DNA of 64,000 nucleotides from positions 1,298,501 through 1,362,500 of the forward strand of contig NZ_OX336385.1 in the NCBI RefSeq assembly GCF_946902905.1, written 5' to 3'. The notes beneath the pieces are model-generated. The model saw only the letters and a list, made by a program, of their open reading frames with translations. It searched no databases and was not told the DNA's origin. Made by a program: the position numbers and the translations under genes. Within the stretch, counting starts at the first letter, position 1, and every line of letters starts with the position of its first letter. The DNA is from Streptococcus sp. Marseille-Q6470. Lineage in GTDB: Bacteria > Bacillota > Bacilli > Lactobacillales > Streptococcaceae. Of this stretch, positions 45,401-52,306 are shown piece by piece.

Positions 45401-45404
45401 GAAA

Positions 45405-45532
45405 GGCGAAAACGGTAGGTGAGGCTACCATAGGGATACGGATGACTACCGCAAAACAGTGGAGACACTACTCGTTGGTCAACAGTCCTGGTCGCGAAGG
45501 TCAAGACTAAGCTCATTACATCGCCCTATGGA
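45405..45532 (+). promoter_or_regulatory. M-box (ykoK) magnesium riboswitch
   Basis: The conserved core GTAGGTGAGGCTACCATAGG (45416-45435) is followed by GGATACGG, GGTCAACAGTCC (45477) and a late GCTCATTACATCGCC. This order matches the M-box aptamer. A closing stem GGCGA (45405)/TCGCC (45521) is visible, and CCATAGGG (45428) can also pair with CCCTATGG (45524). When Mg2+ is bound the aptamer would favour the terminator at 45569. The downstream gene is mgtA, as expected for this class. Confidence 0.92.
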
Positions 45533-45568
45533 GTTAAAGCTTGAACGAAAACAGACAATAAGTTTTTT

Positions 45569-45858: not shown

Positions 45859-48519
45859 ATGAAAACTACAAAAGAAAGACTAGCAGCAGCTATTCAAACT
45901 CCATTTAAAGATAGTCTAGCTTTTTACCATACAAGTCTAAAAGGCTTAGACCAAGAACAAGTCGAAGAAAACCGTGACCTATATGGTGAAAACACCATTA
46001 CAAAAGGTCAAGAGGATTCCATCTTTAAAAAGATTTATGAGTCCATTATCAATCCTTTCACAATCATTTTGCTTGTGATTGCCTTTATTTCTCTCGTTAC
46101 AAACGTCTGGCTGGCCAAACCTGGTCAAGAGGATCCAACGACTTCTATCATTATCGTTGTCTTAGTTTTGATTTCAGGAGGTATCCGTTTTGTCCAAGAA
46201 TTGCGGAGTGACAAGGCAACAACCAATCTTTCAAAAATGATTGTCAATACAGCAACTGTTATTCGCGATGATCTTGAACAAGAGTTACCCATCGATGACT
46301 TGGTTGTGGGAGACCTCGTGAAATTGAGCGCTGGAGATATGATTCCAGCAGATGTCATCTTATTTGAATCACGAGACTTTTTTGTTCAACAGTCAGGTTT
46401 GACTGGAGAAAGTGATGCAGTCGAAAAACTTGCTTTAAATAAAGCTACTAATCAAAATGTAGAGAGTCTTTTAGAAGCAGAATCTTTGGCATTCATGGGG
46501 ACAAACGTTATCTCAGGAAGTGCGATAGCTATGGTTCTAGCAGTTGGTGATGACACCATGATGGGGGCCATTGAGCAAACTCTCAACACCTATGATGAAC
46601 CAACTTCTTTTGAACGTGAAATGAACAGCATTTCTTGGCTCTTGATCCGCTTGATGCTTGTCATGGTTCCAATTGTGTTTTTCGCAAATGGTTTGACCGA
46701 TGGAGACTGGCTAGAGGCTGGAGTTTTTGCCTTGAGCGTTGGTGTTGGACTTACACCAGAAATGCTACCAATGATTATTACAGCCAGCTTGGCCAAAGGT
46801 TCCATTATCATGGCCAAGGAAAAAGTGGTCATCAAAAAACTCAATGCTATCCAGGACTTAGGAGCAATCGATATCCTATGTACGGACAAAACTGGAACTT
46901 TAACGCAAGATGAGATTGTTTTAGAATACCCATTAGATATCCATGGCGATTTGGATATGGCAGTCTTAAGAAGAGCCTATCTAAATTCACATTTCCAAAC
47001 AGGTTTGAAAAACTTGATGGACCGTGCTATCATCAGTAGAACTGAAAAAGAGGCCAAAGAACACGCTATCCTACAAAATTTAGATACTAGTTTCCAAAAA
47101 ATCGACGAGCTTCCATTTGACTTTGAGCGCAGACGCATGAGTGTCATTGTCAAAGACGATAGCAATGTTGTTAGTATGGTTACCAAGGGTGCTTTAGAAG
47201 AAATGTTGAACATTTCGACACATGTGGAGTACCGTGGAGAAGTCATCCCTCTTACTGAAGACATTCGTCAAGAAGTGTTGGCAGAAGTTGGTCAATTAAA
47301 CCGTCAAGGTTTGCGTGTCTTAGGTGTTGGTTACAAGTCAGGTCTACGTGAAGACTATGCCTATGCTGTGACTGATGAAAGTGACATGATCCTTACGGGT
47401 TACCTTGCCTTTTTGGATCCACCAAAACCATCTGCAGCACCTGCTATTCAAGCTCTGCTTGAGCATGGTGTCAAAACAAAAATTTTAACTGGGGATAATG
47501 AAAAAGTAACCCAAGCCATCTGTGAAAAGGTTGGTTTGGATGTTGAACACATCCTTTTGGGCGCTGAGATCGACCAAATGACAGACCAAGAATTGGCAGA
47601 AGTTGTTGAAAAAGTAACAGTCTTTGCTAAATTGTCACCTGACCAAAAAGCGCGTATCATTCTACAGTTGAAGAGAAACGGTCATGGAGTTGGTTATATG
47701 GGTGACGGTATTAATGATGCCCCATCTATGAAGGTAGCAGATGTCGGTATTTCTGTAGATACAGCAGTAGACATTGCCAAAGAAACAGCGGATGTTATTT
47801 TGTTAGACAAGGATCTCATGGTTCTTGAAACTGGTATCGTTGAAGGTCGTAAGGTCTACGCCAACATGACCAAGTACATCAAGATGACCGTCAGTTCAAA
47901 CTTTGGGAATATCTTCTCACTCCTTGTTGCGAGTATCTTCTTGCCATTTTTACCAATGGCTCCTGTTCATCTCATTGTTTTAAACCTAGTCTATGATTTG
48001 TCTTGTGTGGCATTGCCATTTGATAATGTGGATCAAGACTTCCTCAAACAACCTCATACATGGGAAGCAAAATCTATTACTCGATTTATGGTTTGGATGG
48101 GTCCGATTTCATCGATCTTTGATATTTTGACCTTTATTTTCCTCTATTTTATCATTGTTCCTTTGGTGACAGGCTATCATTATGTTCATGGTTCTGAATC
48201 TGCCCTTCAGTTTATTATCTTGTTCCAAACAGGATGGTTCATCGAATCTATGTGGTCTCAAACCATGGTCATCCATATGCTTCGTACAGCAAAAGTTCCT
48301 TTTGTACAAAGCAGACCAGCTTGGCTTGTGATTTTTACAACTTTGGTTGCAGCTTTCTTTGTAACTAGTTTACCTTATGGACCACTAGTAAATATCCTGC
48401 GTTTAGCTCCGTTGGGACTGCCATACTTCTTGTTTTTGGTCGGTATTATTTTCTTGTACATGTTTAGCGTCACCGTTATTAAGAAGTTTTACATTAAGAA
48501 GTACAGAGAGTGGTTATAG
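45859..48519 (+). CDS. mgtA: Magnesium-translocating P-type ATPase
   Basis: This 886-residue type IIIB P-type ATPase imports Mg2+ at the expense of ATP. It has SGLTGESDAV (actuator domain), the MgtA-specific membrane block GVGLTPEMLPMIITASLAKG, CTDKTGTLTQD with the phosphorylated Asp343, KILTGDNEKV, and MGDGINDAPSMK. About ten membrane helices are present. GATAGGAGAAACCA precedes the ATG. The M-box upstream makes the magnesium assignment firmer than for an unlabelled cation ATPase. The roughly 450-base leader is described in separate entries. Confidence 0.94.
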   Translation: MKTTKERLAAAIQTPFKDSLAFYHTSLKGLDQEQVEENRDLYGENTITKGQEDSIFKKIYESIINPFTIILLVIAFISLVTNVWLAKPGQEDPTTSIIIVVLVLISGGIRFVQELRSDKATTNLSKMIVNTATVIRDDLEQELPIDDLVVGDLVKLSAGDMIPADVILFESRDFFVQQSGLTGESDAVEKLALNKATNQNVESLLEAESLAFMGTNVISGSAIAMVLAVGDDTMMGAIEQTLNTYDEPTSFEREMNSISWLLIRLMLVMVPIVFFANGLTDGDWLEAGVFALSVGVGLTPEMLPMIITASLAKGSIIMAKEKVVIKKLNAIQDLGAIDILCTDKTGTLTQDEIVLEYPLDIHGDLDMAVLRRAYLNSHFQTGLKNLMDRAIISRTEKEAKEHAILQNLDTSFQKIDELPFDFERRRMSVIVKDDSNVVSMVTKGALEEMLNISTHVEYRGEVIPLTEDIRQEVLAEVGQLNRQGLRVLGVGYKSGLREDYAYAVTDESDMILTGYLAFLDPPKPSAAPAIQALLEHGVKTKILTGDNEKVTQAICEKVGLDVEHILLGAEIDQMTDQELAEVVEKVTVFAKLSPDQKARIILQLKRNGHGVGYMGDGINDAPSMKVADVGISVDTAVDIAKETADVILLDKDLMVLETGIVEGRKVYANMTKYIKMTVSSNFGNIFSLLVASIFLPFLPMAPVHLIVLNLVYDLSCVALPFDNVDQDFLKQPHTWEAKSITRFMVWMGPISSIFDILTFIFLYFIIVPLVTGYHYVHGSESALQFIILFQTGWFIESMWSQTMVIHMLRTAKVPFVQSRPAWLVIFTTLVAAFFVTSLPYGPLVNILRLAPLGLPYFLFLVGIIFLYMFSVTVIKKFYIKKYREWL

Positions 48520-50488: not shown

Positions 50489-50794
50489 ATGTCACACGAT
50501 CACAACCACGATCACGAAGAACGTGAACTTATTACACTTGTAGATGAGCAAGGAAACGAAACTTTATTTGAAATCCTTTTGACTATTGACGGAAAAGAAG
50601 AATTTGGTAAAAACTATGTTCTTCTTGTACCAGTTAACGCAGAAGAAGATGAAAACGGCGAAGTTGAAATTCAAGCTTACTCATTCACTGAAAATGAAGA
50701 CGGAACAGAAGGTGAATTGCAACCAATCCCTGAAGATTCAGACGATGAATGGAACATGATTGAAGAAGTCTTCAACAGCTTTATGGAGGAGTAA
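50489..50794 (+). CDS. DUF1292 family protein (UPF0473)
   Basis: This 101-residue, very acidic protein has a histidine-rich start ([12 protein letters not shown]) that may bind metal and the DUF1292 core [19 protein letters not shown]...YVLLVPV. The function is unknown. Its fixed position after ireB and ruvX suggests a linked role. AAAGAGGAGAAACT precedes the ATG. The stop codon is the first part of the hairpin array described next. Confidence 0.92.
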
Positions 50795-50992
50795 AAACGT
50801 TCGGGGAACGTTTTTAGCCCAACTCCTAGAAACTAGAAAGAGTTGGAACATCCGGTGGATGTTTTTAGCCCTGCGCTAGAAAATAGAAACGCAGGCAGTC
50901 TGGGAGACTGTATCACCCCAACTCCCAGAAACTGGAAAGAGTTGGAACATCCGGAGGACGTTTTTAGCCTGACGCTAAAAATAAAATTTAGC
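50793..50992 (+). repeat. Tandem array of alternating hairpins (period about 50 bases)
   Basis: Four units, each a short hairpin B with a GGN loop followed by a longer hairpin A with AAA loops, fill the gap between the DUF1292 gene and folC. B arms start at 50793, 50847, 50896 and 50946. A arms start at 50819, 50870, 50918 and 50974. B1, B2 and B4 are followed by TTTTTAGCC. A1 is CCAACTC-CTAG-AAA-CTAG-AAA-GAGTTGG. A2 uses CCTGCG/CGCAGG. A3 keeps CCAACTC/GAGTTGG but changes the inner CTAG/CTAG pair to CCAG/CTGG. These paired changes keep the stems. I do not recognise it as a known RNA or as BOX/RUP. Confidence 0.8.
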
Positions 50993-51012
50993 TAGTATCT
51001 AGCAAAATGAGT

Positions 51013-51040
51013 AAAAAGCGAAGAGAATCTTCGCTTTTTT
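51013..51040 (+). terminator. Terminator after the hairpin array
   Basis: AAAAAGCGAAGA and TCTTCGCTTTTT form a perfect 12-base-pair stem around GAA. It ends 15 bases before the folC ATG, so folC depends on readthrough or an unseen promoter. Confidence 0.9.
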
Positions 51041-51055
51041 GTTAAGGAGATAAGC

Positions 51056-52306
51056 ATGATTGAAGTAGAAAAATGGCTTCATAGTCGGATTGGCTTGAAT
51101 TTTAGATCAGGCTTGGGACGGATGCAAAGAGCAGTAGATTTACTGGAGAATCCTGAGCAAACCTATCCGATTATCCATGTAACGGGTACTAATGGGAAGG
51201 GGTCAACCATTGCCTTTATGAGGGAACTCTTTGTTTCTCATGGCAAGAAGGTTGGGACCTTTACTTCGCCACACATTGTTAGCATCCATGATCGTATTTG
51301 TATCAATGGAGAGCCCATATCGGACGTAGATTTTATTCGTTTAGCAGAACAAGTCAAAGCAATGGAGCAGAGACTTCTAGAAACCCATGATCAGCTATCT
51401 TTTTTTGAGTTGCTGACCTTAATTGCTCTACTCTATTTTAAAGAGCAAGGGGTGGATTTAGTCTTACTTGAAGTAGGGATTGGTGGACTTCTTGATACCA
51501 CTAATGTGGTGACTGGGGAGATTGCAGTCATCACATCAATCGGCCTCGATCATCAGGAGACCTTAGGTAATAGCTTGGCAGAAATTGCTGAACAGAAAGC
51601 AGGAATTTTTAAGTCAGGTAAGTCGGCTGTTATTGTAAATCTAGCTCCTGAAGCACAGATGGTTTGTCAAAAGGTTGCAGAAGATTTGAGAGTGACTCTC
51701 TACCAAGCTGATCAAGATTTTTCTTTCAAGAATGGATGTTTCTCTTCCTCTCTAGCGGACTTGAACCAACTAAAACTGGGATTGGAAGGAGCCTATCAGG
51801 AGGAAAATGCAGCTCTTGCCTTGCAGGCTTTTCTATTGTTTATGGCACAAAGAGATGAGAATGTTGACCAAGAAGCGATTCGAACTGCTTTGCGAACTAC
51901 CAGATGGGCTGGGCGTCTTGAAGCAATCACTGACCACATCTATTTGGATGGCGCTCATAACTTACCAGCTCTGGAGCGTTTGGTTGAGTTTATTCAAGAA
52001 AAAATCCAGCAAGGTTATCAAGCTCAAATTCTTTTTGGTGCCCTGAAGAGAAAAGATTATGGCGGTATGTTGACATCCTTAACTGAGCATTTGCCTGATG
52101 CAACTCTCTATGTTACGACTTTTGATTACCAAGGTTCCTTGGAGGAGCAAGACTTGGGAGGTTATACAAGCATTGCTTCTTATCGAGATTTTATAGATCA
52201 CTTTGAAGCTTCTGCAGGAGAGCAAGACTTGCTATTTGTGACAGGTTCTCTCTATTTTATATCTGAGGTTCGTGCCTATCTTATGAATCCAAAGTCATTT
52301 GATTGA
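51056..52306 (+). CDS. folC: Dihydrofolate/folylpolyglutamate synthase
   Basis: This 416-residue Mur-ligase-like enzyme adds glutamate to dihydropteroate or folates. The P-loop is HVTGTNGKGSTIAF. Other conserved parts are FTSPHIVSIHDRICING, EVGIGGLLDTTNV, SIGLDHQETLGNSLAEIA and DGAHNLPALERL. GTTAAGGAGATAAGC precedes the ATG. It follows a strong terminator closely, and no good -10 was found in the array upstream. Whether it is bifunctional cannot be read from the sequence. Confidence 0.95.
   Translation: MIEVEKWLHSRIGLNFRSGLGRMQRAVDLLENPEQTYPIIHVTGTNGKGSTIAFMRELFVSHGKKVGTFTSPHIVSIHDRICINGEPISDVDFIRLAEQVKAMEQRLLETHDQLSFFELLTLIALLYFKEQGVDLVLLEVGIGGLLDTTNVVTGEIAVITSIGLDHQETLGNSLAEIAEQKAGIFKSGKSAVIVNLAPEAQMVCQKVAEDLRVTLYQADQDFSFKNGCFSSSLADLNQLKLGLEGAYQEENAALALQAFLLFMAQRDENVDQEAIRTALRTTRWAGRLEAITDHIYLDGAHNLPALERLVEFIQEKIQQGYQAQILFGALKRKDYGGMLTSLTEHLPDATLYVTTFDYQGSLEEQDLGGYTSIASYRDFIDHFEASAGEQDLLFVTGSLYFISEVRAYLMNPKSFD

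Follow-up and report, generated by a model that had tools for sequence, protein, structure and literature searches.

REP/BIME elements and GTAG repeats are, in the accessible portions of two reports on them (PMC3733652, PMC2817692), short palindromes that often occur as composite arrays and are mostly extragenic, and a GTAG REP often provides an adjacent ORF with its TAG stop codon (PMC3733652). The interspersed repeats BOX, RUP and SPRITE of streptococci are predicted to form RNA structures; the tandem modules of BOX vary in number, boxA and boxC flanking the boxB units (45 bp according to PMC1315331), and SPRITE is terminator-like, with an 18-bp duplex and a U-rich tract, and is enriched near the 3' ends of CDSs (PMC3049150, in the sections available). 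For low-GC Firmicutes, AT-rich terminator-like stem-loops have been reported that are intergenic, lie near the upstream stop codon and were screened for A/T runs, and the available sections of the same source offer a precedent for the idea that REP-type repeats located at 3' ends may stabilise mRNA (PMC1590033). Finally, the VNTR Spneu26 is an intergenic locus at position 185 kb of R6 with a 51-bp unit, a 65% match and 1-9 units (PMC1315331), in which a 48-bp repeat occurs among the 51-bp ones (PMC4938579); in the accessible text of both papers it figures as a typing-panel marker, and structure, a link to a stop codon or relatives are not mentioned there.

Here we describe a genus-wide, structure-conserved, stop-codon-anchored repeat family of Streptococcus, one array of which fills the gap between a DUF1292 gene and folC in the window, i.e., the whole analysed stretch of 64,000 nucleotides. 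The opening element of an array is usually B1, a palindrome of mostly 25 nt: its left arm starts with the upstream gene's stop codon and its right arm ends in the complement of this stop. Behind B1 follow units of about 50 nt, each made of an A and a B hairpin, which have the same sense as the upstream gene and vary from array to array in number and order. The streptococcal arrays thus consist of palindromes in arrays in the way by which REP/BIMEs are defined (20-40 nt). In contrast to GTAG/CGTC REPs, an alignment of 83 units has no constant tetranucleotide at one end and the stem sequences change freely, and unlike in GTAG REPs the right arm is complementary to the stop codon of the host gene, be it TAA, TGA or TAG. 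Furthermore, REPs usually exceed 100 copies per genome, whereas the source genome holds one array and one weak lone unit, and where BIMEs alternate the orientation of their REPs, A and B are different hairpins arranged head to tail on one strand, all in sense. A Y1 transposase (PF01797) was unmatched in the source genome and in two others (G074 and G205), and 12 of 15 array genomes tested have some Y1 transposase, of the REP-associated or another kind.

From BOX as described in the available text, the arrays differ by the absence, on inspection, of ends corresponding to boxA and boxC and by units of 47-52 nt, and the duplex with U-rich tract of SPRITE is unlike the array units. Compared with the stem-loops in the accessible part of PMC1590033, the stop codon itself is paired here, mostly in an 11+3+11 arrangement, the U-tract is dispensable and an A-B array follows. 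Spneu26 is in fact the same locus, as both published primers match exactly in five loci (L126, L127, L133, L145, L151) around the DUF1292-folC array, and the reverse primer alone matches exactly in a sixth (L143); the window carries the forward site with two mismatches, and no reverse site was found there within two mismatches. The pneumococcal locus is therefore known as Spneu26, but its stop-anchored structure is apparently undescribed, since in the open-access literature searched, as far as its text was accessible, we found no description of a stop-matched hairpin or of an A-B array.

The features of the locus are listed below; the names of the two flanking genes are those of the first-pass annotation of this DNA.

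50489..50794, + strand: host gene, which we take to encode a DUF1292 family protein; last codon GAG, stop TAA (50792-50794) within the first hairpin
50792..50816, + strand: B1, 25-nt palindrome beginning at the stop codon; perfect 11-bp stem TAAAAACGTTC/GAACGTTTTTA, loop GGG
50819..50846, + strand: A1 hairpin; outer arms CCAACTC/GAGTTGG, inner arms CTAG/CTAG, loop AAA and bulge AAA
50847..50863, + strand: B2 hairpin AACATCC/GGATGTT; loop GGT, 3' tail TTTA
50870..50895, + strand: A2 hairpin; outer arms CCTGCG/CGCAGG
50896..50910, + strand: B3 hairpin CAGTCT/AGACTG; loop GGG, tail TATCA, containing the complement of a TGA stop
50918..50945, + strand: A3 hairpin; outer arms CCAACTC/GAGTTGG, inner arms CCAG/CTGG
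50946..50962, + strand: B4 hairpin AACATCC/GGACGTT; loop GGA, single A.C mismatch
50974..50992, + strand: last A unit, a degenerate remnant (GCTAAA/TTTAGC)
50991..51003, + strand: small hairpin GCTAG/CTAGC
51013..51039, + strand: terminator-like hairpin of 12 bp with a T run inside its 3' arm, 5' of folC
51056..52306, + strand: folC, the downstream gene; relatives found by homology search

The 281-nt region folds with z = -6.9, none of 200 shuffles being equally stable. The first-pass annotation had read the gap as eight hairpins in four B-A units followed by a terminator; B1 to B4, A1 to A3 and the terminator-like hairpin are all found in the sequence, while the fourth A is merely a degenerate remnant, and the 7-bp stem given for B1 (AACGTTC/GAACGTT) is replaced by the perfect 11-bp stem that starts at the TAA stop. 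The arm exchanges reported from B1 to B2, from the inner arms of A1 to those of A3 and from the outer arms of A1 to those of A2 agree with the letters, and pairing is kept between units as claimed, except in B4, where the A.C mismatch leaves a predicted stem energy of -1.7 kcal/mol compared with -6.1 for B2 (B3, -5.0). That all B loops read GGN is true in the window, but AGT loops are frequent at other loci. The two kinds of hairpin alternate along the array, those of type A measuring 26-28 nt, the internal B ones 15-17 nt and B1 25 nt, and TTTA stands 3' of the internal B hairpins except B3, a type without a U run. B1 of the window bears A and T runs and resembles a bidirectional terminator; a terminator pattern scan gave no + strand site within the array, although paired T runs are counted into the stem, so that B1 would escape it. 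For this reason the terminator-like hairpin at 51013..51039, which lies outside the repeat family, was flagged on the - strand only. Elsewhere in the window, an M-box magnesium riboswitch (RF00380, 84.7 bits; 45404-45560, + strand) lies upstream of an ORF at 45859, presumably one resembling a cation-transporting ATPase.

The DUF1292 gene is present in all 247 sampled genomes of the genus, and the array recurs behind it. Among 26 folC loci from named Streptococcus genomes (labelled S. infantis, oralis, peroris, taonis, timonensis, pseudopneumoniae and others), it was present in 25 of the 25 that include the DUF1292 gene, the 26th locus ending before this gene. The strain comparison suggested in the first-pass annotation gives a mosaic picture, as the units at these loci belong to a limited repertoire of A and B types and differ in number and order. 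Counting full-length profile HMM matches only and leaving partial B1 matches aside, at least one unit was found in 116 of 132 distinct DUF1292 downstream regions, with 1-9 units per region. Counted from the stop, the first 11 bases pair without mismatch to the facing arm in 111 of these 116 regions (G.T allowed), the exceptions being a one-base insertion (L057), a single mismatch (L155, L182) and the loss of B1 (L061, L122). At the latter two, B1 and part of A1 are missing at the DUF1292 stop, apparently through a deletion between TAAAAA at the stop and identical letters in an A hairpin, and B1 is dispensable there because the arrays persist after its loss. Where no full-length unit was found (16 regions), the hairpin is absent from 13 and retained in three (L185, L191, L200). 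All DUF1292 genes with the hairpin stop at TAA or TGA, and correspondingly the right arm has TTA or TCA at its end. Over 114 regions with 10 left arms (three regions with B1 lost or a base inserted being left out), 1249 of 1254 B1 pairs are Watson-Crick (99.6%, compared with 96.4% in A outer stems), and the other five comprise 3 G.T, 1 A.C and 1 of another kind; one B1 form, TGATACAGTCT/AGACTGTATCA, has a perfect stem with the U-tract absent. In L037, a reverse-transcriptase-bearing insertion, which we take for a group II intron by its resemblance, lies between array and folC, directly after the terminator.

Beyond this locus, a covariance model built from the A-B units (R1), a search proposed in the first-pass annotation, matched 172 of 247 Streptococcus genomes (E <= 0.001), and in the wider order it matched 37 of 295 genomes (E <= 1e-4), all of them in Streptococcus, one of 74 genera; the family is thus confined to a single genus within the sampled order. 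Several array loci per genome are common among the matches listed, which come from 40 genomes chosen for weak or many matches. The 90 loci fetched from these matches represent 87 distinct places, and at 67 of these an upstream ORF has a hairpin that begins precisely with its stop codon (ORF of at least 80 codons, hairpin of at least 9 bp, at most one mismatch), 63 of these hairpins being without mismatch and 54 having 11-bp arms and a 3-nt loop; the remaining 20 places are without a stop-anchored first hairpin. Testing the nearest qualifying ORF only, the count is 65 of 85. TAA is the stop in 55 of the 67 anchored hairpins, TGA in 8 and TAG in 4, and the complement in the arm tracks it (TAA-TTA, TGA-TCA, TAG-CTA). 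By comparison, 1 of 121 ORF ends in the window passes the lax stop-anchor test, and in a background set of distinct ends of ORFs of at least 150 codons from all stretches then fetched, spurious ORFs included, 27 ends carry a stop-anchored perfect hairpin of at least 9 bp, all of them array hosts, and 271 do not.

The hosts belong to about 19 gene families, counting DUF1292, rplT and three unnamed ones. By best NCBIfam match, some of these matches being fragments below the curated cut-off, they include rpoB, rpoD, ilvC, lepA, dnaK, dnaX, dapA, nadE, guaA and era, as well as a glycogen phosphorylase, an MsbA-like transporter, a mannose-type PTS IIA and fakA, the last on the strength of a 13+6 hairpin that contains one mismatch; rplT was inferred from the L20 leader in L226, and of the three unnamed families (L240, L241, L287) the first two had no NCBIfam match. 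Arrays between rpoB and rpoC occur at two loci (L203 and L207/L302). Among the best 30 matches to a query from an array-bearing genome, which are not genus frequencies, the array is unevenly present (rpoB 1/30, ilvC 4/30, rpoD 23/30).

The source genome has 13 R1 matches at E <= 10, four of which are the array, and the best other one (E 9.6e-5) lies behind nadE. This lone A-B unit (G000:C1:657384-657432, - strand; about 1480-1555 on the reverse strand of L253) stands about 170 bases behind nadE and is not anchored to the nadE stop; nadE has a stop-anchored array in L235 and L274. Nested units were seen in L212, L207 and L227, where a B hairpin encloses a further palindrome (AG-TGA...TCA-G) together with an A hairpin belonging to it. 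In addition, units with equal or near-equal scores run at 49-50 nt spacing in L217, G199:C11:180522-180718 and G105:C1:71511-71951, and such long equal-score runs are likely to reflect recent tandem growth.

Exchange of arms under constant pairing can be followed within a single gene at rpoD, where the 23 stop-anchored hairpins among the 30 best-matching loci are all perfectly Watson-Crick in spite of 13 different left arms and the use of all three stop codons; shuffled rpoD downstream sequences reached more than 90% pairing in 7 of 20,000 trials. One rpoD form, TGATTTTGTCT/AGACAAAATCA, is among several first hairpins that pair perfectly without a U-tract. In six of the seven loci without the hairpin, an ATG stands 14 bases past the stop codon.

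Covariation in the units behind B1 was followed in an alignment (A1) of the 83 distinct A-B units, taken from 24 loci and the window, with L020 (unknown bases) and L028 left out. Its outer A helix is 97.5% paired with both sides changed in 5 of 7 pairs, double-change cells number 199, shuffles giving 68, and the paired share of 86.5% drops to 49% or below once the register is slid, although neither the number of pairs with both sides changed (12 versus 11.8 in shuffles) nor that of pair types (31 versus 32.0) is in excess. Internal B helices are 76% paired, which is attributed to the chimeric look of the units. The earlier statement that pairing is conserved despite sequence change thus finds strong support across relatives. 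Moreover, in 287 distinct units G.T outnumbers A.C in the A stems (outer 38:11, inner 197:63), also when counted once per distinct arm pair (outer 29:10, inner 44:20), whereas the excess is small in internal B stems (116:75; 31:28 in another count). The G.T excess in A stems indicates single-strand structure on the coding strand; it could partly be a C-to-T mutation bias on that strand, and related sequences are non-independent. The selection on RNA structure proposed in the first-pass annotation is, as judged from these substitution patterns, supported for the A hairpins and unproven for the first B hairpin, with its few wobble intermediates. Loops carry little conserved sequence, the A loops being A-rich and the B loops GGN or AGT.

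The bases around the stop follow rules of their own. Where the base 5' of the stop is A, T or C, the base 3' of the hairpin is its complement (A/T 20/20, T/A 18/18, C/G 7/7), but a G before the stop is followed by G after the hairpin in 19 cases and by C in 3, and this G/G boundary argues against simple copying as well as against a plain demand for one extra base pair. All 67 anchored places have A as second base of the last codon, compared with 131 of 271 ORF ends in the background. Similar palindromes away from gene stops are 10, against 46 distinct perfect ones at ORF stops; nine of the 10 share the A at the position matching the second base of the last codon, one of these nine (L272) being without an A hairpin behind it, and the palindrome without this A is an array-like copy in L227. 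The rpoB-rpoC gaps are too divergent to yield an empty site with identical flanks.

B1 is nearly perfect with few G.T intermediates, which is unusual for RNA selection alone and makes a DNA copying or insertion mechanism possible. The covariation would then be produced by the copying process and not by selection on RNA, either because one arm is rewritten on the template of the other by fold-back synthesis or template switching or because an insertion machinery builds a right arm complementary to the target NTRA, and the array would be a selfish or neutral repeat. The Watson-Crick purity of B1 behind DUF1292 and at rpoD, the complementary boundary bases and the A in the last codon, shared by nine of the ten non-stop palindromes, all point this way, yet plain copying predicts C where the boundary has G, the A hairpins show the single-strand G.T bias, the widespread DUF1292 arrays remain paired and include single-step paired variants as well as the three G.T intermediates, and random insertion should, by estimate, leave more intergenic copies than the 10 seen beside 46 at stops. 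We consider this origin possible, though not the probable one. Another and, in our view, rather unlikely proposal is that of a mobile hairpin element that recognises stop codons and thereby inserts where reading frames end: a guide in the B tail (TTA, TCA or CTA plus one base) would pair with a target N-TAA, N-TGA or N-TAG in the context R-A-N-T-R-A, and the guide-target pair would then become the stop-covering hairpin, linking translation termination with the shape and lifetime of the 3' UTR. IS200/IS605 guides select their targets by such guide-target pairing.

Readings in terms of gene control or of a free RNA fare less well. The A and T runs of B1, the TTTA behind internal B hairpins other than B3 and the strong terminator-like hairpin before folC would suit the graded terminator or attenuator cascade that the first-pass annotation had suggested for setting folC transcription; similar arrays stand, however, between rpoB and rpoC and behind many unrelated genes, the TGATTTTGTCT and TGATACAGTCT forms stay paired without a U-tract, and internal B stems are weak, the B3 type even lacking a U run. 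Because of the rpoB-rpoC position and the U-tract-less forms, termination is unlikely, and we regard the cascade as very improbable. Hardly more probable is that the 3' UTR releases a stable small RNA or a scaffold (sponge) to which proteins bind, variants of two further ideas of the first-pass annotation: repeated, strongly folding units in sense orientation would agree with it, but the loop sequence is little conserved, the unit number varies from 1 to 9, and neither the array of the window, which the first-pass annotation had not recognised as BOX, RUP, SPRITE, a csRNA or a riboswitch, nor the arrays of 20 other loci reached an Rfam gathering score. Such scores were reached only by the M-box, the L20 leader, Srn266 and SpF59, all outside arrays. 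A coding repeat was rejected since the length of most units (47-52 nt) is not divisible by 3 and arms are freely swapped, and phage or plasmid cargo was rejected as the array of the window had no match in 50,697 phage and 72,556 plasmid records.

We give about an even chance to the reading that the window's array, as a member of the stop-anchored family, is a dispersed REP/BIME-like repeat of the 3' UTR and a candidate barrier to mRNA decay. Carried in this way, the array would be transcribed within the 3' UTR, B1 would close over the stop codon once the last ribosome leaves, and the chain of hairpins may block 3'-to-5' decay and separate the upstream from the downstream cistron without strong transcription termination. 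Units would multiply through duplication and be shuffled through recombination, and their exact placement at stop codons may reflect target choice, selection or both.

If this is right, a pneumococcal typing marker published in 2005 gains a structural identity, and the genus presents a targeting rule at stop codons. It would also offer a natural series of paired variants for the effects of stop-codon structure on termination, recycling and mRNA decay. Above all, streptococcal core genes (rpoD, rpoB, dnaK, ilvC, lepA and others) can, on this reading, end in a hairpin that contains the stop codon, with codon and hairpin co-varying.
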